Positions 4,358 to 39,045 of a DNA stretch of 40,478 nucleotides are shown piece after piece. The stretch's first letter is position 1. The number at the start of each line of letters is the position of its first letter. Both the position numbers and the translations under genes were made by a program. This DNA is from a virus. The stretch covers positions 1 to 40,478 of IMG/VR virus record IMGVR_UViG_3300028384_001321; one strand, written 5' to 3'. Below the pieces are notes generated by a model, which did not search any database, was not told the origin of the DNA, and was given only the letters and a program-made list of their open reading frames with translations.

Positions 4358-5872
4358 ATGGGTTTTTTCGACTTTTTAAAAAAGAAAGAGGAGGTTATTA
4401 AAGCCCTTCCTCCCCCACCGGTAAAAAAACCGGAATCTAAAGCCTCTCAATTCAGTGTTGCCGATGTGTCGAATGCGAATATCACAGCCGACACAGGGTA
4501 TGATGGAAACCCCGATGCCGAATCGGTACGGGGTTTAGGTTACGATCAATTATTAGCAATGAGTCGTGTACCTATTATCTCTGCAATTGTTCAAACACGT
4601 GTAAATCAAATTGCGGAGTTCTCAACCCCAAGTCGGGATGGGCAGGATATCGGTTTTCAAATCCGGTTAAAAGACCGCAAAGAGACACCCTCCGAAGAGG
4701 ACCTTGAAACAATAGATCAACTCTATGATTTCATGATTTCATGTGGGGATAACAGAATCAGTTTTGAGACGAACTTTGAAGCATTCCTTAGAATGCTTGT
4801 TCGGGACAGTTTGATATACGATCAAGCATGTTTTGAGATTATTAAGACACGTGGGGGACAGATTGCGGGTTTCATTAATGTAGACTCTGCAACAATTCGT
4901 CGTACTAAGCGGACAAAAGAAGAACTAAAAGAAGGAAAACGGGACACAAAACGTGCCCAATTTGTGCAGGTTGTAAAAAATAAAACCATTGCTGAGTTTC
5001 AAGCGGATGAACTCTGTTTCGGGATCCGTAGACCGCGATCTGATCTACGGTATCACGGGTATGGTTTCCCCGAACTTGAAGAGTGTGTAGGACTGATTAC
5101 AAACCTGCTGAACTCCGATATGTACAACGCATCTAATTTCACAAATGGGATTAGTGCATCCGGTATTATTGCAGTAAGAAGTAAGATGCAACCTCAACTC
5201 TTTAGGTCTTTTCGAAGAGAGTTCTATAACATGTTAAGCGGTCCTGCATCTGCAAAGAAAACACCGTTAATTCAACTTGACCCCGATTCTAACGAAGATG
5301 TGCGTTCAATTAACCTAACAGCATCAAATAAAGATATGGAATACACAGAGTGGAAAAACTACATGATTAAAAGTATCTGCTCTTTATTTCAAGTTGATCC
5401 GATGGAAATAGGGTTCAAGTTCGGGAATGAAAACCAAAAATCATCTTTCTCCCAAGAGAGCAGTCGTGAAAAAGTTCTTCTCTCAAAAGAGAAGGGGCTA
5501 AGACCTCTCCTCCGTGCCATCCAAAGTTGGTTAAACAAATACGTGGTAAACGAGTTAGACCCTCGTTTTGAACTTGTGTTCACAGGACTTGATTCTTCAC
5601 CTCCCGAACAAATCCTCAAGGTTGCCATCCAAAAGGTAAAGACCTTTATGACGGTAAACGAGGTTCGGGCATTATATGACCTTGAACCTATTGAAACAGG
5701 CGATATCATTCTTGATCCTACTTATTTGAAGACACTATCAAGTACCCCTGCAACTGTTAAAGAAGAAGAAGACGAGTTACAAGAACAAGAGGAAGAACAA
5801 GAGGAAGAACAAGAGGAAGAACAAGAGGAAGAACAAGAACAAGAGGAGGAGATTCTCGATGAAGACATTTAA
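4358..5872 (+). CDS. Portal protein
   Basis: A 504-residue protein that would form the dodecameric DNA-entry ring at the capsid vertex. It starts with 'MGFFDFLKKKEE' and has the alpha/beta portal core with features such as 'RVPIISAIVQTRVNQIAEF' (about residues 70-88), 'PRSDLRYHGYGFPELEE' and 'KSSFSQESSREK' (crown/stem region). It lies upstream of the protease and capsid genes, as expected. The C-terminal ~35 residues are almost all Glu and Gln, encoded by a 12-bp tandem repeat, and are probably disordered. The gene is preceded by a weak ribosome-binding site (AAAGGAC) and overlaps the next gene. Confidence 0.85.
   Translation: MGFFDFLKKKEEVIKALPPPPVKKPESKASQFSVADVSNANITADTGYDGNPDAESVRGLGYDQLLAMSRVPIISAIVQTRVNQIAEFSTPSRDGQDIGFQIRLKDRKETPSEEDLETIDQLYDFMISCGDNRISFETNFEAFLRMLVRDSLIYDQACFEIIKTRGGQIAGFINVDSATIRRTKRTKEELKEGKRDTKRAQFVQVVKNKTIAEFQADELCFGIRRPRSDLRYHGYGFPELEECVGLITNLLNSDMYNASNFTNGISASGIIAVRSKMQPQLFRSFRREFYNMLSGPASAKKTPLIQLDPDSNEDVRSINLTASNKDMEYTEWKNYMIKSICSLFQVDPMEIGFKFGNENQKSSFSQESSREKVLLSKEKGLRPLLRAIQSWLNKYVVNELDPRFELVFTGLDSSPPEQILKVAIQKVKTFMTVNEVRALYDLEPIETGDIILDPTYLKTLSSTPATVKEEEDELQEQEEEQEEEQEEEQEEEQEQEEEILDEDI
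5783..5830 (+). repeat. Four perfect copies of a 12-bp coding repeat
   Basis: The unit GAACAAGAGGAA occurs four times in a row (a partial unit follows) and encodes the repeating Glu-Gln-Glu-Glu tail of the portal protein. Copy number is likely to vary between related phages. Confidence 0.85.
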
Positions 5873-6995
5873 TGTACCCCAAAATGTAAGACGACAAGCT
5901 GAACTTGGACTAAAGCTCCGAAAGGAGCATGGACGTGGAGGACTCACTACCCAACAAGCCGGGAAACTCGGTATTGGGAGCGGTGTTCAGAGAGCTTCTG
6001 ACCTTAAATCGGGATCTGTTTCATATAAGACAGTTAAGAGAATGCTTGCATTTTTTAATCGTCATAAGGCGTATAAGAAGAATCATACAACGAATCCACC
6101 CTCAAACTCCAACATTAGTTGGTTACTTTGGGGAGGGGATGCAGGCTTTGCGTGGGCAAAGCGGATCGTTGCAAAAGAGGAGAATGTTGAGAAAGGAAGT
6201 TTTCTTGCTCTTTCTCTGTTTGGTGATGATTTCCCCGAAGAAGAAGAAGGGGGTTTTCTCGATCTCATTCGGAAAAGCCGACAGGTAGAACCCGAACCCG
6301 AACCCGAACCCGAACCCGAACTAGACCTTGAGTTTAATATTTCGCTTGATGATTCGATCATGCCTATCATTAAAAAAGGACTCAAAGTCCGTAAAAAGAC
6401 AGAGTTCACCCTTGCAAAGAATGTAGGTCAAGCAATCCGTCGAGGGCATTTTGAGGATCTCAATCTTGAAGAGATTGAAAAGTGTCTTGATGGTTTAGGC
6501 ACAGAAGAAGGTGCTGTCGAGGCTTCACTTGTGGGTGCCCATATTATGCTTGAAGCAATCGAGAAGGCTGAACCTAAAGTGCCCGAAAAGTATCTCGAAG
6601 GTTTAACCGGTAAAGAGAGGGCAAAACGGAAGAAAGAGATTATTGCACGAATCCGAGGAAAACAATCCTATAAACCGATGACCGGCGATGATCGAAAAAC
6701 AAAACCGAGTAAATACACAAAGACCGCTATTGCAAGTGCTATCCGTGAGGAAATTAAAGGTAAAGGGAAGGATGAGTTCCTTCGTGCATCGGCAAAAGTG
6801 AGTGGTGTCTCCAAAAAAATCCTTGAACAAGTATACGATCGTGGTTTAAAAGCATGGGCAACGAGTGGGCACCGGGTAGGTGCTACTGCTCAACAATGGG
6901 CAAAGGCTCGTGTTTACTCCTTCCTTTCGGGAGGTAAAACCACTAAGACAGCAGACAAGGACTTATATGAGAAAACGAAAGGACGCAATCGTTAG
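5859..6995 (+). CDS. Two-domain phage structural/head protein (DUF6321-like and DUF5824-like)
   Basis: A 378-residue protein overlapping the portal gene. The N-terminal ~110 residues contain 'GRGGLTTQQAGKLGIGSG', 'VKRMLAFFNRHKAYK' and 'WLLWGGDAGFAWA', a pattern I associate with a phage domain of unknown function (DUF6321-like). The C-terminal ~110 residues contain 'KPSKYTKTAIASAIREEIK' and 'SGHRVGATAQQWAKARVYSF', matching a second unknown phage domain (DUF5824-like). A Pro-Glu dipeptide repeat (about 6286-6320) and acidic linker join them. Such proteins usually lie next to portal genes and may be injected or head-associated. The family names are from memory and function is unknown. Confidence 0.6.
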   Translation: MKTFNVPQNVRRQAELGLKLRKEHGRGGLTTQQAGKLGIGSGVQRASDLKSGSVSYKTVKRMLAFFNRHKAYKKNHTTNPPSNSNISWLLWGGDAGFAWAKRIVAKEENVEKGSFLALSLFGDDFPEEEEGGFLDLIRKSRQVEPEPEPEPEPELDLEFNISLDDSIMPIIKKGLKVRKKTEFTLAKNVGQAIRRGHFEDLNLEEIEKCLDGLGTEEGAVEASLVGAHIMLEAIEKAEPKVPEKYLEGLTGKERAKRKKEIIARIRGKQSYKPMTGDDRKTKPSKYTKTAIASAIREEIKGKGKDEFLRASAKVSGVSKKILEQVYDRGLKAWATSGHRVGATAQQWAKARVYSFLSGGKTTKTADKDLYEKTKGRNR

Positions 6996-7275
6996 ATGCG
7001 GATCGGATCGGGAATTAGCCCTCATCTTCAACGGAGATTTAAGGGATCTTTACGCAAAACTGAGTGTAGGTATACCTCTCCCGTTATTTCGAAGCATTAT
7101 TCACCTAGTAAAACCGTCTGATATACAAAAGGCCCACCCTAACGTCCCTTTTTTCGATATCATTGCCTATACCGAGTTGATTAGAGAGCGTAACTACGGA
7201 GAATTACCTCCAACGATGATTCCGGTTGATACGATGAGAACAAGCACTGCCACTTTCACAGCAGAGAAACCGTAG
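6967..7275 (+). CDS. Hypothetical protein
   Basis: The start is set at ATG 6967 (MRKRKDAIV), overlapping the previous gene by 29 bases. An upstream in-frame start at 6880 would overlap by over 100 bases. The product is 102 residues with a basic N-terminus and no recognised motif, membrane helix or signal peptide. Its 3' end overlaps antisense with the minus-strand membrane protein (7194-7275). It is the last rightward gene before the minus-strand island. Confidence 0.5.
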   Translation: MRKRKDAIVRCGSDRELALIFNGDLRDLYAKLSVGIPLPLFRSIIHLVKPSDIQKAHPNVPFFDIIAYTELIRERNYGELPPTMIPVDTMRTSTATFTAEKP

Positions 7276-7517
7276 TAAACTGAGTTCATCATTACGGTCA
7301 CAGATAGCCCAATTATCGAATATACAATGGAAGTGGTCCATGCTCCACAACGCTCAAGAAGTTGCCAATATGCCCACAAACCAAGAAGGGATATCGGTAT
7401 ACTCGTATATATCGCCCATTCTAGGAGGCTCCAACTACAAATCTCAAGTTTGTTTGCATTCCCCTTGTACCACGAAAAAACGGAGATACAGATCAAGGTA
7501 CATATTGGTATAACCAT
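7194..7517 (-). CDS. Small multi-pass membrane protein (SMR/DMT-like topology)
   Basis: A 107-residue, very hydrophobic protein with probably four membrane segments (about residues 2-17, 30-50, 58-78 and 84-104). Length and layout resemble small multidrug resistance or DMT-type transporters, and the segment 'KVAVLVLIVSTGIIVGG' resembles their last helix. The Glu expected in the first SMR helix is absent, so active transport is doubtful. On the minus strand its ATG lies inside the end of the cyclase gene (25-base overlap), with GGAAGAG upstream, so the two are translationally coupled. It could be the membrane output of the cyclase signal; that is inference. Confidence 0.6.
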   Translation of the reverse strand: MVIPICTLICISVFSWYKGNANKLEICSWSLLEWAIYTSIPISLLGLWAYWQLLERCGAWTTSIVYSIIGLSVTVMMNSVYYGFSAVKVAVLVLIVSTGIIVGGNSP

Positions 7518-8269
7518 TTTGAGTACTCTTCCATTAAGTTAAGATAGTGTGTGAATCGACTGAAAGGGTAGAATATGGTCAAGGAAGAAACAAGTTTAAA
7601 AACTATAAAAAAACTGAACATATGTATAGGGTAAATAATAAACCACCTAACTCTACGTTTATAGATCTCTTTAGGTGTTAATTTAGGACGAGAAACCTGT
7701 TTCACTTTCTTATTCCCTCTAGGTACGTAAAGCCGTGAGCGATCCCATGATATAGCATATAACTGCATAGGGGATTTTACCCCTTTGAAACTCCATTTTC
7801 CAATATCCGCCATTTTTAGCCTTTGACGGATAGAGAATGCAATTTGCCCGGCACGTGAGGATAAAAGAGTCTGTCCTCCACCGGCAAGGGACATAATCCG
7901 GGCACATATCGACTTTTGAATCCCTTCGACTTCTATGGGTTTTGCCCCTCTTGAAACAAAAAAACTATCATTAGAATGCATGACCACGACACCGGCATGT
8001 ATCCCCACTCTTGATTTAAAACCCGTATGTTTCTCGATAAGTTTATGGTACTCCGTAGAATATTCCAAAGCTTCACGCATTGACTCAAAGAGGAGCAGAT
8101 ACCCATCTGTTCGATCAATTTCAAGGCCGTTCCATTTTATCAATAAACCTCGTGCTATCCGATCGTATAGACGCATCTTCATACTCATCCGAAGATCACC
8201 AAGTTGCTGTGTGGTTTTCGTTGAGTCGATGATGTCGATCATTACGAGGATGGCAAAAGTCTGATCCAT
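7493..8269 (-). CDS. Class III nucleotidyl (adenylate/guanylate-type) cyclase, membrane-anchored
   Basis: Predicted to make a cyclic nucleotide from an NTP. The 258-residue protein has the class III cyclase core at residues 5-172: 'MIDIIDST' with metal-ligand Asp12, 'DRTDGYLLLF' with the second metal Asp55, 'RVGIHAG' (87-93), 'ARIMSLAGGGQTLLS' (123-137) and 'GKWSFKGVKSPMQLYAI' (157-173). A basic linker follows, then one hydrophobic helix (about 209-235), so the enzyme is probably tethered to the membrane from its C-terminal side. The transition-state Asn normally four residues before the conserved Arg is Ser120. The usual adenine-selecting Lys before the second Asp is not obvious, so the base cannot be told. 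The gene is the second of a three-gene minus-strand unit, unlike every neighbour. Confidence 0.85.
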   Translation of the reverse strand: MDQTFAILVMIDIIDSTKTTQQLGDLRMSMKMRLYDRIARGLLIKWNGLEIDRTDGYLLLFESMREALEYSTEYHKLIEKHTGFKSRVGIHAGVVVMHSNDSFFVSRGAKPIEVEGIQKSICARIMSLAGGGQTLLSSRAGQIAFSIRQRLKMADIGKWSFKGVKSPMQLYAISWDRSRLYVPRGNKKVKQVSRPKLTPKEIYKRRVRWFIIYPIHMFSFFIVFKLVSSLTIFYPFSRFTHYLNLMEEYSKWLYQYVP

Positions 8270-8587
8270 TTATTTAGCAATCTCCGCTTCAATTTTTGCA
8301 AGTCGGGTATAAACCTCAGAAGGGGCCACAACCTGCACTTCAACTTTAGCAAGTCTCTCGCTCATCTCGTTATCTTTTGGTTTTAGCGTGCCGTTGATGA
8401 CACCGAAGATCTCAAGTCGCCCTTGGCGGTTACTTTCGATGGCTTTTTTGCAATCTTCTATTTGATGTTCAAGTGCCTGTAATTTTGCCTCGATTCGTGT
8501 AATGCTCTTTGAAAAGTTCCATAGAAGTCCTCCACAGAATATCAAAGCAGGCATAATTTCAGTTATAATCGATGTGAAGTCTTGCAT
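8270..8587 (-). CDS. Small membrane protein with coiled coil, first gene of the cyclase unit
   Basis: The start is set at the ATG whose first base is 8587 on the minus strand (MQDFTSII), with AAAGGT about 11 bases upstream. The longer frame to 8644 would run through the promoter. The 105-residue product has an N-terminal hydrophobic segment (about residues 6-24) and then a long helix with heptads ('RIEAKLQALEHQIEDCKKAIE') and a second coiled-coil stretch near the C-terminus. Its stop directly abuts the cyclase start. It is similar in design to the protein at 2930-3157, so a holin-type ancestry is possible, as is a sensor or scaffold role for the cyclase. Confidence 0.55.
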   Translation of the reverse strand: MQDFTSIITEIMPALIFCGGLLWNFSKSITRIEAKLQALEHQIEDCKKAIESNRQGRLEIFGVINGTLKPKDNEMSERLAKVEVQVVAPSEVYTRLAKIEAEIAK

Positions 8588-8612
8588 TTTAATTTTACCT
8601 TTGGAGTAGATC

Positions 8613-8786
8613 ATGACACGTATATTATATAAGTATATGGACACTGAGACAAAAAAGTATTTTTTATCTACAAAAAAAGAAACTCCAAAAAAAGGATGGG
8701 TTCGATTTCTAATTTGTAGTTACGAGATGACTCCCGAACAGTATATCGAAATGTGTATATTTTTCGACCCTTTATGTATTAACTGA
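8613..8786 (+). CDS. Possible small ORF, 57 residues
   Basis: An open frame from ATG 8613 to TGA 8786 with a good GGAG six bases upstream. The product starts MTRILYKYMDTETKK and contains 'GWVRFLICSYEMTPEQYIEM', with a composition that looks protein-like. Against it, no rightward promoter is visible upstream and the frame covers the leftward cyclase promoter. No family recognised. Confidence 0.28.
   Translation: MTRILYKYMDTETKKYFLSTKKETPKKGWVRFLICSYEMTPEQYIEMCIFFDPLCIN
8624..8652 (-). promoter_or_regulatory. Sigma70-like promoter of the cyclase unit
   Basis: On the minus strand: TTGTCT (8652-8647), 17-bp spacer, perfect TATAAT (8629-8624). Transcription would start near 8617, about 30 bases before the first gene of the unit. 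A perfect -10 with ideal spacing suggests use by the host RNA polymerase without phage factors. Confidence 0.6.
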
Positions 8787-8793
8787 TTTTTTG

Positions 8794-8812
8794 TGTGAAC
8801 CACGTGAACCAC
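8794..8812 (+). promoter_or_regulatory. Left arm of 19-bp perfect inverted repeat (operator-like)
   Basis: TGTGAACCACGTGAACCAC, the exact reverse complement of 8904-8922. Each arm holds two tandem GTGAACCAC half-sites joined by a CACGTG palindrome. It lies about 50 bp upstream of the rightward -35 element, a position suited to a second operator and DNA looping. Confidence 0.6.
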
Positions 8813-8860
8813 AGTATATAGGAGCGTCAGAAAAATAAATAAAAATACAGAAGTAGGGGG

Positions 8861-8889
8861 TAGACAGGTATTTTTTATTTAGTTACAGT
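8861..8889 (+). promoter_or_regulatory. Promoter of the HTH-head operon
   Basis: TAGACA (8861-8866), 17-bp spacer, TACAGT (8884-8889). The -10 is embedded in the near-palindrome AGTTAC-A-GTAACT (8881-8893). The predicted start near 8896 puts the right inverted-repeat arm just downstream of +1. The same TACAGT -10 with 17-bp spacing occurs before the DNA polymerase gene. Confidence 0.45.
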
Positions 8890-8903
8890 AACTCATAGGG
8901 ACA

Positions 8904-8922
8904 GTGGTTCACGTGGTTCACA
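8904..8922 (+). promoter_or_regulatory. Right arm of 19-bp inverted repeat, next to ribosome-binding site
   Basis: GTGGTTCACGTGGTTCACA, the exact reverse complement of 8794-8812, 91 bp away. It ends one base before the AGGAG-type ribosome-binding site of the gene at 8932. A bound protein would block transcription just after the start. An RNA hairpin between the arms would need transcription from upstream of 8794. Confidence 0.6.
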
Positions 8923-8931
8923 GGAGTAATT

Positions 8932-9660
8932 ATGATAAAGAAATTTTTTGGCGTTCCGGTTTACAGAGTCGATAATCTATCAGATATGTTTTTCACCATT
9001 AAAGACATGGCAAAGACACTTGGGGTTAAAGATAAAACAATCCGTCGGATGATTAACCAATGTAATGAGGCACGGGTACTCGCCCTCCCTCGTAAACAAA
9101 GGGGACAACCTAAAGGAGATATGCGGAATATCTATACATTGAAAACATGCATCTCCTTGTTGTTTGCAACGCACCATGAGTATACAAGCGAAAAGAACAC
9201 ACAGATCCGGGAGTGGATTACCACCATCTTGAACAACCTTTGCTTTGATGAGTTCGTGTCTTTATACGGGTACAGACTCGACGAAGACTTAAGGCGTGCA
9301 ATTGCAACCTATGTCTGCGAGTGCGAATCTTATCATCAAATCGTACTCTCTCGCTTTAATGTCTACGAAGATTACTGCAATACCGTACTTAGGGGTAGCA
9401 TGAGTTCAAAACTAGCTCACGTTCAAAATCCCGAAGCTTATATCAATCGGTATGAAGTCATGCAGATAAAAGCAATTGATCTTGCCGTGTTCCTGCTTTG
9501 TGAATATGCCGTGAAAAGCACCCCCCGTGCCCTCTTAAAAAGATTAGGTATCGACCCGAAAAAAGGGGAATATACTGAAAAAGATCAAGAGGAAGTCCTA
9601 AATTTCTTATCAAAGTATTATAAGAATGGTATACTACGAAGAAAAAAGGAGTTTAAATAA
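8932..9660 (+). CDS. Putative helix-turn-helix DNA-binding protein
   Basis: A 242-residue protein of no named family that I recognise. Residues about 22-43 (FTIKDMAKTLGVKDKTIRRM) have the pattern of a helix-turn-helix like those of excisionase or MerR-type domains. A basic stretch follows, then a long helical region, and a Lys/Arg-rich C-terminus. The gene starts nine bases after a perfect 19-bp inverted repeat and shares a TAATG junction with the protease gene. It is thus first in the head/neck/tail operon. A regulator of its own operon is a natural reading but unproven. Confidence 0.55.
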   Translation: MIKKFFGVPVYRVDNLSDMFFTIKDMAKTLGVKDKTIRRMINQCNEARVLALPRKQRGQPKGDMRNIYTLKTCISLLFATHHEYTSEKNTQIREWITTILNNLCFDEFVSLYGYRLDEDLRRAIATYVCECESYHQIVLSRFNVYEDYCNTVLRGSMSSKLAHVQNPEAYINRYEVMQIKAIDLAVFLLCEYAVKSTPRALLKRLGIDPKKGEYTEKDQEEVLNFLSKYYKNGILRRKKEFK

Positions 9661-10796
9661 TGCCTTATCCTAATTATCACACGGCTCGTTTACACGATCC
9701 GAGTAAGTACCGTTCATTTCGTACGATGAAACCCAAGAATTTCCCCGAAGGGATCTCTGTTGTTGTTGGAATAAAAGAAGACGACAGTTCTGAGTTTCAA
9801 TCTATCCGGGCAGATAAAAAGAAGTTTAGTCTTGAAGACTTTAAAAACTTCCTAAAAGAGAACAACTTCGCAACATCTAAAATTGAAGAGGCACGTAAAA
9901 GTTTACAAATGTTCTCTGCATGGGTGCCTGCGGTTGTTAAATCCGAAGAAAGCCGTGCGAAAATTGGAGGTATCATCTCAACAGAGACTGTCGATCAACA
10001 AGGCGACGTTATCCTCCAAGATGGGATGGACTTCTCCTATTTCCTCGATAAAGGCTACTTCAACTATGAACATAAGGGTGGAGTCGAGTATATCGTCGGT
10101 GCCCCCACGAAAGTAGAGCGTGTCAATATCGATGGGAGACAGGCTACACGGGTTGAAGGCTATCTCATGACTGAGAAAGCACTTGCAAAGAACATCATGG
10201 AAACAGCACAAGCAATGCAAAAAGCAGAGATCAATCGAAAAATCGGATTCTCTGTCGAAGGGCAAGTGCTACAACGTGATCCTGCAAATCATCATATTAT
10301 CACGAAGGCAAAAATCCTTAATGTTGCAATCACGTCTGCCCCTGTTAATCCGGAGGCACACCTTGAAATCCTTGCGAGGTCTTTAATGAATCCAAAACAA
10401 ATGGCACAGTCGATTATTGACTGCCACCCCGAAATCCGAAATGAAGAGGTAATGGCTGAACTCCATAAATCTATCGGTTATCAAACCCCGGCACAACCTT
10501 CAAATGCAGGGGAATTGTCGGCACTCGTTCCTCAATCTATGGATGAGAAAGTAAGCGTACAAGATGCCCCTAAATTAGAGGAAATGATGTACGATCGACT
10601 AAAAATCGAGATGGAAAAGATGATGGGGGAAAGAATGGCTCTTATGCTTAATCCCAAAGGTAAAGAGGCACCTTCGATCTCAACTTCTCAGATTCGGGAT
10701 GTTTTAATGCGTGTTTTTCCTCAATTAGATCCAAAGAAAGCACGTCAACTTGCTAATAACCTTGTCAACTCGGCAAAATCTTATTATAATTCCTAA
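9660..10796 (+). CDS. Prohead protease (S78/XkdF-like) with scaffold-like C-terminus
   Basis: A 378-residue protein expected to cleave capsid and scaffold proteins during head maturation. Residues 1-75 are an N-terminal phage module ('YHTARLHDPSKYRSFR', then 'FSLEDFKNFLKENN') common ahead of such proteases. Residues ~95-240 are the protease: His138 in 'NYEHKGG' and Ser198 in 'KIGFSVEG' are the likely catalytic pair, followed by 'KILNVAITSAPVNPEAHLEIL'. The C-terminal part is helical and scaffold-like. Residues 286-293 (LSALVPQS) recur in the N-terminus of the major capsid protein, possibly a processing site. Confidence 0.8.
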   Translation: MPYPNYHTARLHDPSKYRSFRTMKPKNFPEGISVVVGIKEDDSSEFQSIRADKKKFSLEDFKNFLKENNFATSKIEEARKSLQMFSAWVPAVVKSEESRAKIGGIISTETVDQQGDVILQDGMDFSYFLDKGYFNYEHKGGVEYIVGAPTKVERVNIDGRQATRVEGYLMTEKALAKNIMETAQAMQKAEINRKIGFSVEGQVLQRDPANHHIITKAKILNVAITSAPVNPEAHLEILARSLMNPKQMAQSIIDCHPEIRNEEVMAELHKSIGYQTPAQPSNAGELSALVPQSMDEKVSVQDAPKLEEMMYDRLKIEMEKMMGERMALMLNPKGKEAPSISTSQIRDVLMRVFPQLDPKKARQLANNLVNSAKSYYNS

Positions 10797-10821
10797 AGTT
10801 TATTTCTGTGGAGAATGGAAA

Positions 10822-11316
10822 ATGTCTGAACAAACACTTGTTGAAGAGACTGTTGACACTCAACGTCTTGAATCATTAATTGAAGATCTCAGCAAATCCT
10901 TAAACAAAGATGATGAAGCAATTGAAATCATCTCTAAAGGTGCTGACGCTATCGTGGAACAAAACAAGGCACTCGTTGAAGCTGTTCAAAAGTCTATTGA
11001 AGGCATCAATGAGAAACTTGACACTTTCGTTGCACGGCTTGAGTCTTTGGAAGGAAATCTTGAAAAAGGACTTGGTGAAATTGCGAACCAACCTATCAAG
11101 AAAGCAATCACTGCTGAGGCAGAAGTTGCACCTGCCGAAGTTAAAGAAGAAGAAAAAGTCGTAATCTCTAAGAGCATGGTTATTAATGCCTGTCTTGCGG
11201 AATTACAAAATGAAATCAATCCATCACGATTGGCAGACTTGCGAAAAGGGATTGCTCGTTTAGAGAGTAACTATGATCCTCAAGTTGTTGCTAAATCTCT
11301 AAACATCAATATTTAA
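10822..11316 (+). CDS. Capsid scaffold-like coiled-coil protein
   Basis: The start is set at ATG 10822 (MSEQTLVEE), with GTGGAG and GGA upstream, rather than an upstream frame that overlaps the protease. The 164-residue protein is highly charged and helical, with a heptad region around residues 20-85 ('NEKLDTFVARLESLEGNLEK'), an Ala/Glu-rich linker and a short conserved-looking C-terminal segment. Its position between protease and major capsid protein is where scaffolding or head-assembly proteins lie. No sequence signature proves it. Confidence 0.5.
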   Translation: MSEQTLVEETVDTQRLESLIEDLSKSLNKDDEAIEIISKGADAIVEQNKALVEAVQKSIEGINEKLDTFVARLESLEGNLEKGLGEIANQPIKKAITAEAEVAPAEVKEEEKVVISKSMVINACLAELQNEINPSRLADLRKGIARLESNYDPQVVAKSLNINI

Positions 11317-11326
11317 GGGAGTTGTC

Positions 11327-12766
11327 ATGTTTCAACCAAACGAACTTGTTCCTGTACAAGACTTAGTACGCCTTAATGAAGCACTTCGCAAGAATCTCGA
11401 AGGACCTGCCGGTTTCATCGATCACCAAACAGGTGCTGTTCCTTCTGCTGACGGTTCTTTATCCGCACTCGTTCCTCAATCAATCGAGGGTATGCTTTCA
11501 GTAGCAACTCACACGATGGATGAGATCAAATTGTGGAAGAATATGCCTAAAGTAAATGTTAACAACACCTTGCATGAGTATGTACGTGTTGATGAGCATG
11601 GACTTGACCTTGACCCGTTCATCGCAGAAGGTGGCGGAGGAACTGACTTTACCACCGGTCAAGCGAACTACTCTCGTGAATCTGTAAAGATCAAGTACAT
11701 GGCAGAACGTCGTCAAATCTCTGACGTTGCGTCTATGGTTGGTTTAATCGGCGATAACCGCAATGCTCTTGCAGAAGAAACCGAGCGTGGTACTCTTGCT
11801 CTTATGCGTAAAGTAGAAACTGCATTATGGCATGGTGACGAGAGTTTGAATGATAACGGTTTTGACGGAATCATTAAGCAAATCAAAGACGGTGGAAACT
11901 CTCTCGATCTTAAAGGCTCTGTTCCTTCTCCTCTTCTTCTTCAAGAAGTTCTTGGCGAAGTCTATGCAAGTCCTAACTTCGGTCGTCCGGACACCATCTA
12001 TGTTGAACCACGCATCCACTCAGAATTGATCCGTCAATCTGTGGAGAATGGTCGTCACGACATGTTCGTTCGTAATCCTGCTCAAGGAATCACTTTCGGA
12101 CAACAAGACATCTTCATTTCTGCTCCTTATGGTAAAGTTAAGGTTGAGTCTGCTCCATTCTTGCACACAGCAAAGAACTTCCCAAGTGCTGACATCGGAG
12201 ACGTTACAGGTGTGGCCTTCGGTAATGCTCTTGGTGTAGCACTAAATGCTAACGCTACCTCCTCACAACTTCCCCAAGGTGTTTACAAAGTAGCAGTTGT
12301 TGCAGTAACCAAGAAGGGTGCGAAGAAAAGTTCCGTTCTTTCTATTAATGTTAATCTTGATGACAAAGACATTCGATTAACTACTGATGATGCGAACAAT
12401 ACCGGAGACATCTTGTACTACCGCATCTACCGAAGTAGCAAAGACGGTGGAAACTCTACGCTTAAGAAAATTGCAGAAATCCCTGCGGGAACTGCTACTT
12501 TCGACATCACTTCTGATCTTGCGTATAACAGTTCTCCGATTGTTTTTGCTCAACACACCCCCGACGCGATGCAATTTGTCCGATTGATGGATCTTATTCG
12601 TCGTCCGCTTGCAGAGACTTCTACCGTTAAGCCTTTCCTTCTCATGCTTTTCGGAAGTCCTCTCATCAAGTTGCCTAAGAAAATGTTTGTTCTTGAGCAT
12701 GCCGGATTTACTGAGACTGCAAACCTCGGTGATGATGGAGTTAACTACTTAAATGCTAACTTCTAA
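11327..12766 (+). CDS. Major capsid protein with Ig/FN3-like insertion
   Basis: The main head shell protein, 479 residues, probably HK97-fold. It has an N-terminal arm (1-~50) ending in LSALVPQS (45-52), then a core with 'VKIKYMAERRQISDVASM' and 'ALWHGDESLNDNGFDGIIKQI', followed by 'PDTIYVEPRIHSELIRQ'. Residues about 315-400 ('GVYKVAVVAVTKKGAKKSS' to 'GTATFDIT') look like an inserted Ig or fibronectin III domain that could be exposed on the capsid surface. The C-terminus 'IKLPKKMFVLEHAGF' is also typical. The start has a good AGGGAG ribosome-binding site. Confidence 0.88.
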   Translation: MFQPNELVPVQDLVRLNEALRKNLEGPAGFIDHQTGAVPSADGSLSALVPQSIEGMLSVATHTMDEIKLWKNMPKVNVNNTLHEYVRVDEHGLDLDPFIAEGGGGTDFTTGQANYSRESVKIKYMAERRQISDVASMVGLIGDNRNALAEETERGTLALMRKVETALWHGDESLNDNGFDGIIKQIKDGGNSLDLKGSVPSPLLLQEVLGEVYASPNFGRPDTIYVEPRIHSELIRQSVENGRHDMFVRNPAQGITFGQQDIFISAPYGKVKVESAPFLHTAKNFPSADIGDVTGVAFGNALGVALNANATSSQLPQGVYKVAVVAVTKKGAKKSSVLSINVNLDDKDIRLTTDDANNTGDILYYRIYRSSKDGGNSTLKKIAEIPAGTATFDITSDLAYNSSPIVFAQHTPDAMQFVRLMDLIRRPLAETSTVKPFLLMLFGSPLIKLPKKMFVLEHAGFTETANLGDDGVNYLNANF

Positions 12767-15470: not shown

Positions 15471-17402
15471 ATGCCTTCAAGTATCAATTTTAATGGGCAA
15501 CGTTTTCGCCCTAATGTTTATACGAGAGTGCTTGTCAGTGAAGGGCCGGCAACTGCATCAACCGGTGCCGTTGCCGTCGTCGGAGATTTCCCCGAACTGA
15601 AACAAGCAACCCCCATCACTTTTACCAATAAATTGGATCAAGAAGATTACTTCTTAGGCTCAAGTGCTACGCTTCAACGCATTGCAGACCTTGTGTATCG
15701 TCCTCTTGAAGATCGAGATGCCGGGATTCAATCATTAACAATTGTATCTGCAAACGAGAGTACTCAAGCAAGTCTTTCAAATGCCGGAATCAAAGTTAAA
15801 AGTAAATTGTACGGTGCTTTCGGTAATCGTTTACAAGTGCTTATCAACGCAAATGCTGACGACGCAGATCTTTACGACTTAAAAGTAAAACTTGGATCAC
15901 GAGAAGTTGAAAAAGTTGAAGCACTCGGTGATGGAGACATTGCATCTCTTGGATATACCGCAGGCTCTACTTTTGATGAAATGCTCGTTGAAGTTGATGC
16001 AACTACTTTCAAAGTCACCGGAAAAATCACTAAGGTGAATGCTGATGTCATTGCAGGAGGCGATCTCGTTGCAGAGACTTCTGTTGCTGATGGTGCGGTC
16101 ACGTTAACAAGTGATGCTAATCAAGTAGGCACCGACACCGTGTTCACCATTACAGGTTTAAATCTTGCCGGATCCACAGACACCGAAACTGTGACAATGG
16201 CCGGAGGTTCAGACACCGCCACCTCAACAAAGAGTTTCAGTCGTATCGACAGTATCGTGTCTGATGCTAACTTTGACGGGGACCTCACAATCACCTTCCC
16301 TATTTACTCAAAACTTCTTTCTGAGATTTCAGACTTCGGTGCTGAACTCGAAGATATTGAGAACTTAAATGGTGACATTGATGGGTCTTTTGCAATCACC
16401 AAACCCTCAACAAGAACGACAGGAAATCAAATTGATCGACTTAGTTCAACAAACGCACTTGGGGGAACTGTTAATTTCAACAATGATGTGGATACCATTG
16501 TATCTTGGTTCAAAACTTCTTCTCATGTAACTGCTGAACGAGGAAGTAATGATGCCTCCATCACGAAATCCTCATCGTTCAGCCGGTTAACAGGAGGTTC
16601 TGCGGATAGTTCTGTTTCAAATGATGACTTCCAATTAGCATTCGACTCTATTGAACGTGAACCGATTAACATCGTTGTGCCTTTCACCTCTGACATTAAC
16701 ATTCATAAGATGGCGAAAACACACGCAGAAGATTCTGCGAGTAGTGCCGGATACGACCGCAATGTTTGGGTCGGATCAACAGCAGGTCAAACAGTAGAAC
16801 AAGTTGCAAACGGTTTTTCTAAAGTCCTTAATGACCGAAATATGGCTGTTGTATGTCAGCAAATCGAGTTAGATGATGGTGAAACCTATGATCCTTACTA
16901 CCTTGCTCTTGTCCTCGCAGGCATGCAGGGTGCAACCGCAGTAGGTACCCCACTTACACGTAAACGACCTACACCCTTAATTAAGAAAACGGTTCAAACA
17001 TTTGATGTCGAGAAAAAAGCAAGTCTTGCAATCCGGAGAGGAATCGTTCTTCTTACTGATCCTCGGAATACAGGACTTAATATCGAGCGTTCTGTTAGTA
17101 CATACACAGATACACCAAACCCTGTTTACTCAGAAGTAAGTGCTAACGAGAGTCTAAACATCTGTGTTCGTACTGTCCGTTCGGACCTCCAATCCCAAAT
17201 TGGAGAACGGATTCTTGGTGGGACTAAGAATGATCTTGCACGTATAACAACAAATACACTAATAGATCTACAAAAGGTGGGAGCGATTCTTTCCTTCAAC
17301 AATGTATCCGTAAGCATCACAGGTGATCGTGCGGACATTAGTTTTGGAATTGAAGTCACTCAACCTCTCAACTTCATTGTTGCAACCATTAACGTAGGTT
17401 AG
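15471..17402 (+). CDS. Contractile tail sheath protein
   Basis: A 643-residue protein that forms the outer contractile tube. The N-terminus ('FRPNVYTRVLVSEGPATASTGAVAVVGDFPE') and the C-terminus ('TNTLIDLQKVGAILSFNNVS', then 'DISFGIEVTQPLNFIVATINV') are typical of sheath proteins. In between, 'YDPYYLALVLAGMQGATAVGTPLTRK' matches the domain bridging adjacent subunits. A Thr/Ser/Asp-rich insertion of about 200 residues near residues 150-320 probably forms an extra surface domain. It is the clearest evidence for a myovirus-type tail and is followed directly by the tube gene. Confidence 0.93.
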   Translation: MPSSINFNGQRFRPNVYTRVLVSEGPATASTGAVAVVGDFPELKQATPITFTNKLDQEDYFLGSSATLQRIADLVYRPLEDRDAGIQSLTIVSANESTQASLSNAGIKVKSKLYGAFGNRLQVLINANADDADLYDLKVKLGSREVEKVEALGDGDIASLGYTAGSTFDEMLVEVDATTFKVTGKITKVNADVIAGGDLVAETSVADGAVTLTSDANQVGTDTVFTITGLNLAGSTDTETVTMAGGSDTATSTKSFSRIDSIVSDANFDGDLTITFPIYSKLLSEISDFGAELEDIENLNGDIDGSFAITKPSTRTTGNQIDRLSSTNALGGTVNFNNDVDTIVSWFKTSSHVTAERGSNDASITKSSSFSRLTGGSADSSVSNDDFQLAFDSIEREPINIVVPFTSDINIHKMAKTHAEDSASSAGYDRNVWVGSTAGQTVEQVANGFSKVLNDRNMAVVCQQIELDDGETYDPYYLALVLAGMQGATAVGTPLTRKRPTPLIKKTVQTFDVEKKASLAIRRGIVLLTDPRNTGLNIERSVSTYTDTPNPVYSEVSANESLNICVRTVRSDLQSQIGERILGGTKNDLARITTNTLIDLQKVGAILSFNNVSVSITGDRADISFGIEVTQPLNFIVATINVG

Positions 17403-33665: not shown

Positions 33666-35693
33666 ATGAATAAATCTAAAATATGGGGCTTCGATTCCGA
33701 AACCTTTTTAATTACAAACCAAGTTGTTCCTCGTGATGTATGTTGGACATTTTATAACGGTAATGTTCGATACCTCTTTAACGATATTGATGGGGAGAAG
33801 TTTCTTCAAAGATTACTTAAGTCGGATGCCATTCTCGTCGCACAAAACGCATGTTTCGATCTTTGTGTTGCAAGTGTAAAGTCAAAAGAAACATTCACGC
33901 TGATTAATGACGCACTACAAGATAATCGCATTTACTGTACCAAACTTGCACAAATCCTCATTAACAGTGCCGACCCGCAAGTCGAAGGTGTCCGGGATGC
34001 AAAAGTCTTTATTCAACAAGCCCAAGATAAGTGGAAACCAAGTTCCTCCATCTCAATGGAAGGTTTGGCGTGGAAGTATCTCGGTTTCGACCTAAGTCAT
34101 CACAAAGCAAGTAGTGTCCGTACCGGGTATGGCGACTTGTACGGGGTTCCCGTTGAAGAATGGAGCCACGCAGAACAGGAATATGCAAAAAACGATGCTG
34201 TATACGTTCGAGACATCTTCATTAAACAAATGGATGAGCATGGACACCTCCTCAGTGATCTCAGTCGTCAAACGTACGTTGAATATATCTTGCAGATGAT
34301 GGCAACCGTTATCGGAGTCGAAATCAATAATGATAAAATCGGAGACGCAGTAGATGCTGTCATGGAGATTCATGATGAACTCATTACCCGGTGTCCAAAC
34401 CTTCTTAAAGAGAACAAGAATAACGATAGAGGCTATTCAGCAATATCTAAAGTTGTTCAAGACTATGTTATTACACTCAGTAAAATCTGTGGTGTTGAAC
34501 TTGAGACAACAAAAACCGGGAAGATCAGTACGAACAAGAACAATATGGATACCCTTTTTGAAGGTGTTGACTTTGTTCTAACTCATGGGGTAACTCTCGA
34601 CACTAAGCACCGACTGAGTAAAGAGAAACTACAAGAAGTTGCGGATAAGACAGCAGAACTCCGGGCAAAACAAGAGGCTGACTCTAAATGGAAAGAGAAA
34701 CGTACGTTCCTAGATGCTTTGAAGAACGCAGGATTGAACCCCGATAACCGACTCCGGTATAACTACAATGGATTGATGGAAACAGGCAGAACAAGTTCAA
34801 GGAACCCGAATCTACAGAATATTCCCCGAAAAGGAAAAGCACGTGCTTGTATCAAACCACGAGAAGGGCACATCTTCCTTCAAGCGGACTATTCTAACGC
34901 TGAGTTGAGAACATTGGCTCAAGCACATATAAACGAAGGTAGAAATACCCGACTTGGAGAGGAATATATCAAAGATCCAAACTTCGACCCTCACCTTTTT
35001 ATGGCTGTTAACTTATTAAGCACCGAAGGTATACACCTTAGTTATGACGAGGGGAAGGACGTTCTTTCGGATAAAGAACATGCGTTATATTATAACTTGA
35101 AAGAAAAACGCCAACTCTCCAAAATAGCTAACTTCGGCTATGCCGGTGGCCTAGGTGCTGAACAGTTTGTAGACTACGCTAAAGGCTACGGCACACATTT
35201 GAACCATAAACAAAGTCAACAGTTGCGGGACCAATGGCTTGAGACATGGACCGAAATGAAAGCCTATTTCGACGAAAGAAGTCGATGTGTGGACGATGAA
35301 GCTGAGTACCTGTTTATCTCGTCGAAACGAAAACGCTATCTCCGGAAGTTCACAATTGCGTGCAACACTCCCTTTCAAGGGATTGCATCGGACGGGGCGA
35401 AAGAGGCAATTATCATGGTATGGCGTGAATGTTTCTTCGACAAAGAAAGCCCCCTCTACAAGTGTGTACCTATCCTCTTTGTACATGATGAATTGGTGCT
35501 TGAAATCCCCTTCAAAAGCCAAGAACAAGCAACGAGATCCGCTTTACGATTGAAGCAACTCATGGAATCCGGTATGAAAGTGCATACGCCGGATATCCCG
35601 GCTGTCGCAGAACCTTGTCTCACTAAATTATGGACAAAAGATGCAGAATCAGAGATGATTGAGGGATTGTTAACCATCTATGTTTCAGAGTAG
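33666..35693 (+). CDS. Family A DNA polymerase with 3'-5' exonuclease domain
   Basis: The start is set at ATG 33666 with AAGGAG eight bases upstream; a GTG at 33648 is in frame but would cover that site. The 675-residue protein has an N-terminal exonuclease ('FDSETFLI' near residue 9, 'AQNACFDL' near 60, 'YAKNDAVYVRDIF' near 175) and a polymerase part with motif A 'DYSNAELRTLA' (Asp408), motif B 'KIANFGYAGG' (Lys486) and motif C 'HDE' (607-609). All catalytic residues are present. It is the only replication enzyme in the window; helicase and primase must lie elsewhere or come from the host. The 3' end overlaps queD. Confidence 0.93.
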   Translation: MNKSKIWGFDSETFLITNQVVPRDVCWTFYNGNVRYLFNDIDGEKFLQRLLKSDAILVAQNACFDLCVASVKSKETFTLINDALQDNRIYCTKLAQILINSADPQVEGVRDAKVFIQQAQDKWKPSSSISMEGLAWKYLGFDLSHHKASSVRTGYGDLYGVPVEEWSHAEQEYAKNDAVYVRDIFIKQMDEHGHLLSDLSRQTYVEYILQMMATVIGVEINNDKIGDAVDAVMEIHDELITRCPNLLKENKNNDRGYSAISKVVQDYVITLSKICGVELETTKTGKISTNKNNMDTLFEGVDFVLTHGVTLDTKHRLSKEKLQEVADKTAELRAKQEADSKWKEKRTFLDALKNAGLNPDNRLRYNYNGLMETGRTSSRNPNLQNIPRKGKARACIKPREGHIFLQADYSNAELRTLAQAHINEGRNTRLGEEYIKDPNFDPHLFMAVNLLSTEGIHLSYDEGKDVLSDKEHALYYNLKEKRQLSKIANFGYAGGLGAEQFVDYAKGYGTHLNHKQSQQLRDQWLETWTEMKAYFDERSRCVDDEAEYLFISSKRKRYLRKFTIACNTPFQGIASDGAKEAIIMVWRECFFDKESPLYKCVPILFVHDELVLEIPFKSQEQATRSALRLKQLMESGMKVHTPDIPAVAEPCLTKLWTKDAESEMIEGLLTIYVSE

Positions 35694-36120
35694 CAAAACA
35701 TTTAGAAACTTCCCTTGTGCGCACAGGCGATGGGAGCATCAAGGACATTGCAAACTTGTACACGGGTACTCTCGTGAATTCACCTTTTGGTTTCGATGCG
35801 AAGCACTACAGGAAGGTACAGGGTTTGTTATGGACTTCGGAGATCTAAAAGATGTAAAAGTTTGGTTAGAGCATCATTTCGACCATACTCTGCTTTTAGA
35901 CTCTAAAGATCCTCTCCTCCCCTCTTTTTTAGAACTTGAAAAACAAGGAGCATGTCGCGTCATCTCGTATAAGGACGTAGGCATGGAGGGAACCGCACAC
36001 TTTGTATACCAAAACATCAACCCTATGATCTTGGAAAAGACGAAAGGGAGAGTTTGGATCCATAGTGTTGAATGCCGGGAAAATGACAAAAATAGCGCAA
36101 TCTATATTGGAGAAACATGA
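35680..36120 (+). CDS. queD: 6-carboxy-5,6,7,8-tetrahydropterin synthase QueD
   Basis: Second step of preQ0 synthesis: dihydroneopterin triphosphate to 6-carboxy-tetrahydropterin. The 146-residue protein has the PTPS/QueD frame: 'CAHRRW' with zinc-ligand His15, nucleophile Cys24 in 'GHCKLVHGY', zinc-ligand His28, 'MDFGDLKDVKVWLEHHFDHTLLL' with catalytic Asp68-His69, and Glu131 near the C-terminus. The usual HGH motif is HGY (Tyr30), so the third zinc ligand of E. coli QueD is replaced; HGY variants are known in related proteins, but activity here is not certain. It opens a run of five overlapping genes. Confidence 0.85.
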   Translation: MFQSSKTFRNFPCAHRRWEHQGHCKLVHGYSREFTFWFRCEALQEGTGFVMDFGDLKDVKVWLEHHFDHTLLLDSKDPLLPSFLELEKQGACRVISYKDVGMEGTAHFVYQNINPMILEKTKGRVWIHSVECRENDKNSAIYIGET

Positions 36121-36728
36121 AGACTTTACTTTTACTCAGTGGCGGACTAGATTCAACCATCCTCCTTGCCGAACTTTTAAAACAAGGTAGGGTGGTCGAA
36201 ACACTTACTTTTGATTATGGACAGACGCACCCTGTTGAAATCGAAAAAGCAAAACATATTGCAGACGTATATAATGTACCCCATACTGTGCTTATCCTTG
36301 ATGCACAGAAACACAAAACCTTCGATGAAATAAGTCAAGCGTTTGTACCGGCAAGAAACCTCATATTTCTAAGTCATGCTTTGAACTATGCACTAAATAA
36401 TGGTTGTGACTGTATCGTGATTGGTGTAAACCGCACAGATGAACAAGGTTTCCCCGATTGTCGGATTCCTTTCATTGAAGCCGTTCAACAAGCGTTCAAC
36501 ACAGGTTCTCCTACACACGTTAAGATTGAAGCCCCCTTGATTGATAAAACCAAGGCCGAAATCGTTGCACAAGGACAACAACTTGGTGTTGATTTCTCAT
36601 TAACTAATACTTGCTACTTTCCCGAAAATAAGCTAGCTTGTGGTAAATGTGAGTCGTGCCTTGTTCGACTTGATGCTTTTGAAAAGAATAAACTAAGAGA
36701 TAATGTGAAATATGCAGAAAGAGATTGA
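36117..36728 (+). CDS. queC: 7-cyano-7-deazaguanine synthase QueC
   Basis: Last step of preQ0 formation: CDG plus ammonia and ATP to preQ0. The 203-residue protein has the PP-loop SGGLDST at residues 8-14, 'DYGQTHPVEI', 'VPARN' near 77-81, and the zinc Cys set 166, 175, 178, 181 ('TCYFPENKLACGKCESC'). It is slightly short for the family but all motifs are present. No amidotransferase domain is fused, so this is not a Gat-QueC. It overlaps queD (ATGA) and folE. Confidence 0.93.
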   Translation: MKTLLLLSGGLDSTILLAELLKQGRVVETLTFDYGQTHPVEIEKAKHIADVYNVPHTVLILDAQKHKTFDEISQAFVPARNLIFLSHALNYALNNGCDCIVIGVNRTDEQGFPDCRIPFIEAVQQAFNTGSPTHVKIEAPLIDKTKAEIVAQGQQLGVDFSLTNTCYFPENKLACGKCESCLVRLDAFEKNKLRDNVKYAERD

Positions 36729-37251
36729 AGCTGTAAAAACACTACTTCGTTTCATTGGGGAAGATCCCGACCGCGAAGGTTTGAAAGAAACTCCTGCACG
36801 CTTTCTTCGAGCGTGGCGGGATGAGTTTTTTAAAGGTTATGAAATAGATCCTAAGGCGTTTTTAGAAACAACTTTTTCAGAGACGGATACCTACTCTAAG
36901 ATGATTCTACTAAAGGACATAACTTTCACATCTTATTGTGAGCATCACATCGTCCCCATTATCGGTAAAGCACACATTGGATACATCCCAAATGGCGAAG
37001 TTGTAGGGATCTCCAAAATCGTCCGTGTTCTACAAGGTTATGCTCAACGCCTACAGATTCAAGAGCGACTTACTGAACAAGTTGCACAGACCCTTTTCGA
37101 GGGACTCAACGCTAAAGGTGTTATCGTACTGATCGAAGCTGAACATTATTGTATGCGCACTCGCGGTGTGAAAACAAACTCCACAATGTCTACAATGTCG
37201 ATTAAAGGGACCGTTAACCAAGAAGAGTTTTTCCATGCTATACGTCGTTAA
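36712..37251 (+). CDS. folE: GTP cyclohydrolase I FolE
   Basis: First step: GTP to dihydroneopterin triphosphate. The 179-residue protein is type I (FolE): 'DREGLKETPARFLRAW' at the start, zinc-site Cys76 and His79 in 'SYCEHH', 'GISKIVRVLQGYAQRLQIQERLTEQVA' and 'HYCMRTRGVK' with Cys147. In the middle of queuosine-type genes it clearly serves 7-deazaguanine synthesis rather than folate. It overlaps queC by 17 bases and queE by 17. Confidence 0.95.
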   Translation: MQKEIEAVKTLLRFIGEDPDREGLKETPARFLRAWRDEFFKGYEIDPKAFLETTFSETDTYSKMILLKDITFTSYCEHHIVPIIGKAHIGYIPNGEVVGISKIVRVLQGYAQRLQIQERLTEQVAQTLFEGLNAKGVIVLIEAEHYCMRTRGVKTNSTMSTMSIKGTVNQEEFFHAIRR

Positions 37252-37831
37252 AGAAATCTTCTACTCGATTCAAGGAGAAGGTTTATACTCCGGTATGCCT
37301 ACCTTGTTTTGTCGTTTCTCTAAATGCAACTTGTGGAGCGGACATGAAAAAGACAGAGGAAAAGCAATATGCCAATTTTGTGATACAGACTTTGTTGGTG
37401 GTGATTCCTTCTATCTTAATGATCTCGTTGCTAAACTCCTCCTTATGTGGCCCCACAATTCAAACCCAAGAATTGTACTTACAGGAGGTGAACCCCTACT
37501 CCAAGTTGACCAAAGACTAATTGACGAACTTAAAGAGCATAACTTTTTTATTGCAATCGAGACAAATGGTACGCGCCCAATGCTCAACCATATTGACCAT
37601 ATCTGCGTTAGTCCAAAAAATGGGAGCAAACTCGTGGTTAAAGAAGGAAACGAACTTAAACTTGTTTACCCCCAAGATCCTACACCTTATGAAAACTTGA
37701 AGTTTGACCACTTTTATCTACAACCTATGGATGGGAAAGAAAATGCCGTTGCGGATACACTAAAGTATTGTTTAAATCATCCGAAGTGGAAATTGAGTTT
37801 GCAACTCCATAAAATCCTTGGGTTACCATGA
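37235..37831 (+). CDS. queE: 7-carboxy-7-deazaguanine synthase QueE (radical SAM)
   Basis: Radical SAM enzyme turning 6-carboxy-tetrahydropterin into CDG. The 198-residue protein begins with 'YSIQGEGLYSGMPTLFCRF' and carries the atypical cluster motif C-x14-C-x2-C at Cys31, Cys46 and Cys49, as in E. coli-type QueE. 'VLTGGEPLLQ' and 'IETNGTRP' are the SAM- and substrate-binding motifs. It overlaps folE and dpdA (ATGA), consistent with one transcript. Confidence 0.93.
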   Translation: MLYVVKEIFYSIQGEGLYSGMPTLFCRFSKCNLWSGHEKDRGKAICQFCDTDFVGGDSFYLNDLVAKLLLMWPHNSNPRIVLTGGEPLLQVDQRLIDELKEHNFFIAIETNGTRPMLNHIDHICVSPKNGSKLVVKEGNELKLVYPQDPTPYENLKFDHFYLQPMDGKENAVADTLKYCLNHPKWKLSLQLHKILGLP

Positions 37832-38613
37832 AATACACTTTCTACTGCTCCGGTGTTGCCCCTATTTGTGAAATAAAAGCACTCGTAGATAGTGACATTC
37901 ACTATGGGGTATCCCTTCATACTCTCTCCAATAAATCACTTCAATATATGATTCAAAACCCTGTCGGAAAGATCTTCGTCGATAGTGGTGCTTTTGCAGA
38001 ATATGGGAAAGAAAGAATCACACACCGAGAGTGGCTCCGAAAACTCAATATCTACTCACAACTTGCAAATGTATACGGGAAAAATGCTCTTTTCGTTGCT
38101 CCCGACTGCATCGGAGATCAAACTGAAACGATTATCCGATTACTACGATATAAGAATAAAATACTCGACCTTTTGGATAAAGCAAACGTCATCGTCCCCC
38201 TTCAAAAAGGATCTCTCTCTATTAGCGCATTTTATTACCAAGTTGTTCAGATACTTGGAACATCAAACTTTGTGTGTGGTCTTCCGTTTAAGAAATCAGC
38301 CTTAAATATTGAGGATTATATCGAACTTGTTCAAACCGTAGCTCCCGAAAGAGTTCACTTTTTAGGCGTTTCCCCCCGGTCGCAAAAGTTTCCCTACATA
38401 AAGAAGGTTACTCAACAATTAGATAACCCTCCCTGTATATCACTCGATGCGGTGATGTTTAGGGCACTTGCAGGTCGAAAATATGGGGTTAAACCTTTAA
38501 CAGAGGCACAAGACTTCTTTAGAGACGGTGTAAGGACCCCAAGTGAAGTGAAATACCTTGCTATCCGCCATATTAAGCACGAAATTGTTAAGGAAAATAA
38601 TAAAGTAGTATGA
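37828..38613 (+). CDS. dpdA: DNA-guanine transglycosylase, phage DpdA-like
   Basis: Predicted to swap guanine in phage DNA for preQ0. The 261-residue protein has a compact TGT-like fold: 'FVDSGAF' (Asp52) as base-recognising Asp, 'VAPDCIGD' (Asp93), 'VCGLPFK', 'RVHFLGVSPRS' (His177) and 'SLDAV' (Asp207, probable nucleophile). The zinc site and C-terminal parts of tRNA-guanine transglycosylases are lacking, as in phage DpdA proteins. Position right after four preQ0 genes makes a DNA role far more likely than tRNA. Confidence 0.85.
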   Translation: MKYTFYCSGVAPICEIKALVDSDIHYGVSLHTLSNKSLQYMIQNPVGKIFVDSGAFAEYGKERITHREWLRKLNIYSQLANVYGKNALFVAPDCIGDQTETIIRLLRYKNKILDLLDKANVIVPLQKGSLSISAFYYQVVQILGTSNFVCGLPFKKSALNIEDYIELVQTVAPERVHFLGVSPRSQKFPYIKKVTQQLDNPPCISLDAVMFRALAGRKYGVKPLTEAQDFFRDGVRTPSEVKYLAIRHIKHEIVKENNKVV

Positions 38614-39044: not shown

Positions 39045-39045
39045 T

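Follow-up and report, generated by a model that had tools for sequence, protein, structure and literature searches.

Why should a phage carry a nucleotide cyclase gene within its head operon, on the opposite strand? The question is raised by the linear IMG/VR virus record IMGVR_UViG_3300028384_001321, analysed here over its whole length of 40,478 bases (the window). Three minus-strand open reading frames (ORFs) separate the portal and DUF5824 genes (4358-6995) from the genes of an HTH-like protein, the head protease and the major capsid protein (8932-12766). The island spans 6996..8931, from the stop codon of the DUF5824 gene to the start of the HTH-like gene. The original prediction had described such a minus-strand island, and all three of its ORFs are indeed present. 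The comparisons described below show a predicted class III cyclase in which the metal and transition-state residues are complete and which has a C-terminal membrane segment; its gene is firmly linked to that of a small, putatively membrane-bound coiled-coil protein. We consider it rather probable that the island represents a variant of a module for cyclic nucleotide signalling which is encoded by phages and anchored in the membrane.

The first gene of the island, P0003 (8270..8587, minus strand, 105 amino acids), encodes a protein with a hydrophobic segment near the N-terminus and an extended coiled coil. It is followed by P0001 (7493..8269, minus strand, 258 amino acids), a class III nucleotide cyclase whose C-terminus carries a predicted membrane anchor, and by P0002 (7194..7517, minus strand, 107 amino acids), an accessory multi-pass hydrophobic protein. 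The genes had been described as overlapping. This holds for the cyclase and P0002, which share 25 nucleotides, whereas the P0003 and cyclase ORFs abut exactly. The coiled-coil membrane protein P0003 was described correctly. The count of four helices in P0002 was not confirmed; the protein has three to four hydrophobic stretches. A relative of P0002 was found only in the related contig L002 (44% identity). A unit of three genes, as had been proposed, is not supported: the conserved unit consists of P0003 and the cyclase, and P0002 is an optional third gene.

The Pfam general cyclase model barely matches P0001 (E-value 0.11). The best profile match is NCBIfam TIGR04510 (mod_pep_cyc, putative peptide modification system cyclase), positions 7-202 of which align with residues 7-189 of P0001 (E-value 4e-34); across the phage cyclase family the E-values range from 4e-34 to 1e-41. 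The likeness is to an N-terminal cyclase domain. The full-length model, with 814 positions and a cut-off of 400 bits, is not matched, since the phage proteins align with its first 200 positions and score 111-140 bits. Unlike the 814-residue model, the phage protein ends after the cyclase domain and adds a membrane anchor. An AlphaFold (AF2) model of P0001 built from 17 sequences (mean predicted local distance difference test score, pLDDT, 86) has 184 matches in the PDB at E-values of at most 0.001, and the best of them is the catalytic domain of Rv1900c (target-normalised TM score 0.93, 26% identity).

The metal-binding residues D12 and D55 and the transition-state residue R124 are invariant in 49 of 49 phage relatives, and so are D52, K110 and K119. 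The position of the classical Asn is occupied by Ser in P0001 and by Asn in 32 of the 49 relatives; Rv1900c also has no canonical Asn at this position. By alignment, the base-specifying positions are D52 and mostly E113, both unusual, and thus the substrate base cannot be predicted. The C-terminal hydrophobic segment (approximately 209-237 in P0001) is kept in nearly all cyclases, with drifting sequence. In close pairs of relatives, the ratio of nonsynonymous to synonymous substitution rates (dN/dS) is 0.02-0.07 for both P0003 and the cyclase, and it is 0.06-0.18 for contigs L006 and L007; five of the six measurable values are below 0.07. The pair of the window is itself saturated at synonymous sites. 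As judged from these ratios, the genes of the relatives are under purifying selection, and the cyclase ORF is clearly no product of chance. The profile model, the fold match and the alignment bear out the earlier assignment of the centre gene to class III, with metal aspartates 12 and 55 and a hydrophobic C-terminal segment. The island cyclase is probably active and membrane-anchored.

The family of P0003 (A5) has 15 members with 59-88% identity to P0003 and an invariant motif NRQGR...FGV.N. Between the window and L002, P0003 is more conserved than the cyclase (88% and 69% identity, respectively). Its structural model consists of one long helix (2-68) and two further helices, and is of low confidence. 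All family matches of P0003 are weak and of the coiled-coil type, including those to holin and spanin families of PHROGs, observed in a minority of members with E-values from 5e-5 to 6e-4.

The top minus-strand promoter match is a candidate sigma-70-like promoter, TTGTCT-17-TATAAT, at 8624..8652 (read from 8652 to 8624), recognised by similarity to the consensus. The promoter proposed to drive the island is thus present as a pattern, and L002 has TTGTTT-17-TATAAT ahead of the pair at about the same distance; however, the exact site is not kept in most relatives.

The pair of P0003 and the cyclase recurs in the same order and with tight spacing in approximately 15 contigs. Wherever the P0003 scans found this gene, the cyclase came immediately after it in the same orientation; the sole exception is the remote contig L036. 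In contigs sharing the head module of the window (L002, L005, L006, L007, L008, L009, L012, L020), the pair is antisense between the DUF5824 and HTH-like genes. The same junction is free of the pair in head-module relatives L046, L048, L049, L051, L060-L063 and L065; as shown by the gene orders of 80 protease-bearing loci, relatives that lack the pair have nothing or almost nothing in the interval corresponding to the island. In the non-homologous phages L029 and L032 the pair is again antisense, with the portal gene on one side and methylase or terminase genes on the other, and in L004, L010 and L019 it is found amid unrelated genes. As judged from gene order, the pair is an accessory unit placed opposite structural genes and transmitted among different phages. 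L010 (NZBZ01000007.1) is a contig of 21.6 kb, binned in a small-genome metagenome-assembled genome (MAG), with the P0003-cyclase pair and phage-like neighbours; it is probably a phage contig in the bin.

A second type of partner was observed in the 168-kb contig L013 and in L021. There, in place of P0003, the gene after the cyclase encodes a protein of approximately 160 amino acids, here named TMCC, which combines a coiled coil with two membrane helices. Two membrane segments are present in every TMCC. A scan with TMCC yielded 46 contigs, the longest of 375 kb. Of these, 45 hold a cyclase, mostly adjoining TMCC and in a few contigs 1-4 kb apart from it; the remaining contig breaks off immediately ahead of TMCC. 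Conversely, a scan with the TMCC-type cyclase yielded at least 310 relatives in IMG/VR. TMCC adjoins the cyclase in 79 of the best 80 of these 310, and the eightieth contig ends 70 bp past the cyclase. The 80 loci were selected by the cyclase alone, for similarity to TMCC-paired cyclases, and the proportion therefore holds for that clade. After removal of near-copies, TMCC was present in 64 of 64 clusters of TMCC-type cyclases. The two genes share the strand in all 125 cases out of 125, and the commonest spacing is a start-stop overlap of four bases. D12, D55 and R124 are present in every aligned row of 126 TMCC-type sequences.

In the cyclase tree, two deep and fully supported clades correspond to the two types of partner. 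The sole crossing is L013, where a P0003-type cyclase stands beside TMCC. G300 and G308, which belong to the broader lineage of the window and have the head site empty or different, carry the cyclase with TMCC elsewhere. Homology of P0003 and TMCC was tested by profile comparison and is not supported. TMCC has sub-threshold matches to the SLATT two-transmembrane (2TM) effector domain in 18 of 24 members, with the best E-value of 0.0026; the Pfam gathering score is not reached (17 bits against 26.5 for the member from L013). Sub-threshold matches to a CBASS 2TM effector model were found in three of the 24 members. Operons of the cyclase with TMCC occur in L126-L171 and L176-L255, contigs of 200-375 kb included, next to diverse genes (ThyX, terminase, others). 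A conserved two-helix membrane protein of approximately 90 amino acids is often encoded a few genes away from the cyclase (13 of 33 non-redundant TMCC contigs); examples are L021 5363-5644, L010 3460-3732 and L004 6044-6310.

What could the pair do for the phage? After infection, it would be expressed from its own promoter and would assemble at the inner membrane, where a dimer of the cyclase would make a cyclic mononucleotide (cNMP). The coiled-coil partner could be switched by this signal or by direct contact, or else it could control the cyclase; the partner would be the effector or regulator and the cyclase the signal maker, acting jointly at the membrane. The faint SLATT likeness of TMCC points to a membrane effector, with no score at the cut-off. 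The likeliest benefit would be control of the membrane or signalling state of the infected cell against a competing infection. Of the possible purposes we tentatively rate superinfection exclusion highest, followed by takeover of host signalling and then by control of lysis. Countering a host cyclic-nucleotide defence, also considered in the original prediction, seems to fit less well with an enzyme expected to produce cyclic nucleotides. The phage anti-Pycsar nuclease Apyc1, which acts on cyclic mononucleotides (PMC9117128), destroys cNMPs, whereas the island enzyme should make them. With a similarly tentative confidence, we propose a widespread and hitherto undescribed second-messenger system owned by phages, formed by an obligate pair of a membrane cyclase and a membrane coiled-coil protein with at least two interchangeable partner families, which would determine the condition of the membrane in the infected cell and could serve, for instance, as a phage equivalent of Pycsar against rivals. 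The proposal would apply to small uncultured phages as well as to those with contigs as long as 375 kb.

Several observations weigh against a signalling module of this kind. No nucleotide-binding or sensor domain was seen in P0003 or TMCC, and proteins of 105 and approximately 160 amino acids leave small room for a recognised one; the cNMP-gated effector therefore stays putative. Since the two partners are not homologous by profile, the two versions of the module might differ in function. The 168-kb contig L013 has a P0003-type cyclase without any P0003. Finally, all pair-bearing contigs are uncultured, and they may be fragments.

A more specific possibility, which we regard as rather unlikely, is a phage-carried defence of the Pycsar or Panoptes type, in which a cNMP (pyrimidine or other) triggers the partner (Pycsar) or restrains it (Panoptes), and a second phage causes collapse of the cell. 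The arrangement of two genes, a synthase and a membrane protein, agrees with it. Pycsar (PycC with PycTM or PycTIR) is the nearest known system in layout, since there too a class III cyclase gene adjoins a membrane-protein gene, and to this extent the original comparison was apt. However, membership in Pycsar is not supported, although the module may still act in a comparable way. A profile search against PycC gave no match of the PADLOC models to P0001 and E-values of 0.005-0.05 in a minority of 17 members, compared with 4e-34 for TIGR04510; the cyclase thus falls outside the PycC clades. As the prediction had anticipated for the flanking proteins, PycTM and PycTIR match neither P0003 nor TMCC in Pfam or PADLOC, and the effector matches of P0003 do not go beyond coiled-coil noise. 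The partners are unrelated to known effectors, no sensor domain was seen in either, and, again unlike Pycsar, the island is carried by a phage. Panoptes offers a precedent, as its operons of a synthase and a 2TM effector can work by constant inhibitory signalling (PMC12657218), and the sub-threshold SLATT and CBASS matches of TMCC are in line with this analogy: like the CBASS and Panoptes effectors (SLATT, S-2TM-beta), TMCC joins a pair of membrane helices to a helical cytosolic part behind them. On the other hand, TMCC is below every cut-off, and the phage synthase has another fold, that of a class III cyclase and not of a CD-NTase or mCpol. The island is not a Panoptes (OptSE) system by these comparisons: the synthase matches class III cyclases, and the partner has no S-2TM-beta match.

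Alternatively, raised cAMP or cGMP might re-programme the metabolism of the host or block receptor expression, with the partner merely anchoring or activating the cyclase. We consider this possible, if doubtful. The class III catalytic set is intact, the enzyme is anchored in the membrane, and its closest solved relatives, the mycobacterial class III cyclases Rv1900c (LipJ) and Ma1120, are deposited as adenylyl cyclases; these are the best fold and sequence matches to P0001, although at approximately 20-26% identity and, in those entries, with neither a C-terminal membrane anchor nor a paired coiled-coil gene. By analogy with cyclase-transducing elements, a coiled-coil partner could act in trans. 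However, takeover does not need strict pairing with two unrelated partner families, and the non-canonical base-specifying residues make cAMP an uncertain product. It is improbable that the pair times lysis or permeabilises the membrane through a holin-like protein under control of the cyclase. The membrane proteins are small and P0003 has the weak holin and spanin matches, but these track coiled-coil composition and are scattered over many unrelated families, and the pair is antisense to late genes and not beside recognised lysis genes where this was checked. Least probable by far is a structural or assembly role in the head operon. The pair does lie amid head genes in the window and beside portal and terminase genes in two other phage types; however, it is always antisense to head genes, the site is empty in many related phages, and in large genomes the pair is outside the head genes. 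A virion role of the same genes in related phages, which would have spoken against the original interpretation, is rejected on the grounds of strand, empty sites and unrelated contexts. The pair as cargo of lysogeny is not supported either: no Phage_integrase match was found in 12 contigs or in eight of ten large ones, all of which may be fragments.

In phage biology, cyclic-nucleotide signalling is known mainly as a bacterial defence that phages overcome, either by degrading the signal or by sponging it up. In the present case, a signal-making enzyme and its dedicated membrane partner are apparently encoded by phages themselves. Hundreds of environmental contigs carry them, and the cultured phage records searched do not: among 50,697 records, no match was found for P0001, P0003, the TMCC-type cyclase or TMCC. 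A peptide scan of GTDB genomes for close relatives of P0001 found none; a scan with the alignment found one MAG contig that looks like a piece of a phage, and nothing further was found in 287 genomes of the phylum of that MAG. Searches of plasmids gave only generic cyclases (23-32% identity) and no TMCC. No phage-encoded adenylate or guanylate cyclases were found in the literature searched, the coverage of which was partial. BFVD contains a few uncultured viral proteins with cyclase folds, and phage cyclases as such are therefore not new. The distribution suggests that many phages run a signalling circuit of their own at the membrane of the infected cell, as far as this can be read from genomes. 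If the pair is active, signal synthesis joins the phage toolkit, and two small genes make the nucleotide product and the action of the membrane protein directly testable.

The neighbouring genes of the window are on the plus strand. They encode the portal protein (4358-5872), the DUF5824 protein (5859-6995), the HTH-like protein (8932-9660), the head protease (9660-10796), the major capsid protein (11327-12766) and the tail sheath protein (15471-17402). The portal has approximately 35% identity to the portals of SPO1-type Herelleviridae, and the capsid protein is more distant still. By these similarities, the window would represent a lineage of myoviruses from which the phage collection searched has no cultured member. 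Two plus-strand ORFs flank the island genes. The divergent ORF of 57 amino acids at 8613..8783 overlaps the promoter region and is 58% conserved in L002. The ORF at 6969..7275, between DUF5824 and the island, overlaps the end of P0002; a similar ORF was seen by eye in L002 at 11099-11371, although tblastn at an E-value of 1e-3 found no match there.

A gene of approximately 600 codons together with one of approximately 104 codons precedes DUF5824 in some relatives and follows it in another (L006 5271-7357, L007 10399-12485, L053 4089-6255), and thus this stretch of the head operon has been rearranged between phages. Far from the island, at 35680-39492, the window contains consecutive QueD-, QueC-, GTP cyclohydrolase- and QueE-like genes and genes for a DUF6610-like and a transglycosylase-like protein, probably a phage 7-deazaguanine DNA-modification pathway. 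This row is followed by an Eco57I-like DNA methyltransferase gene at 39486-40358.
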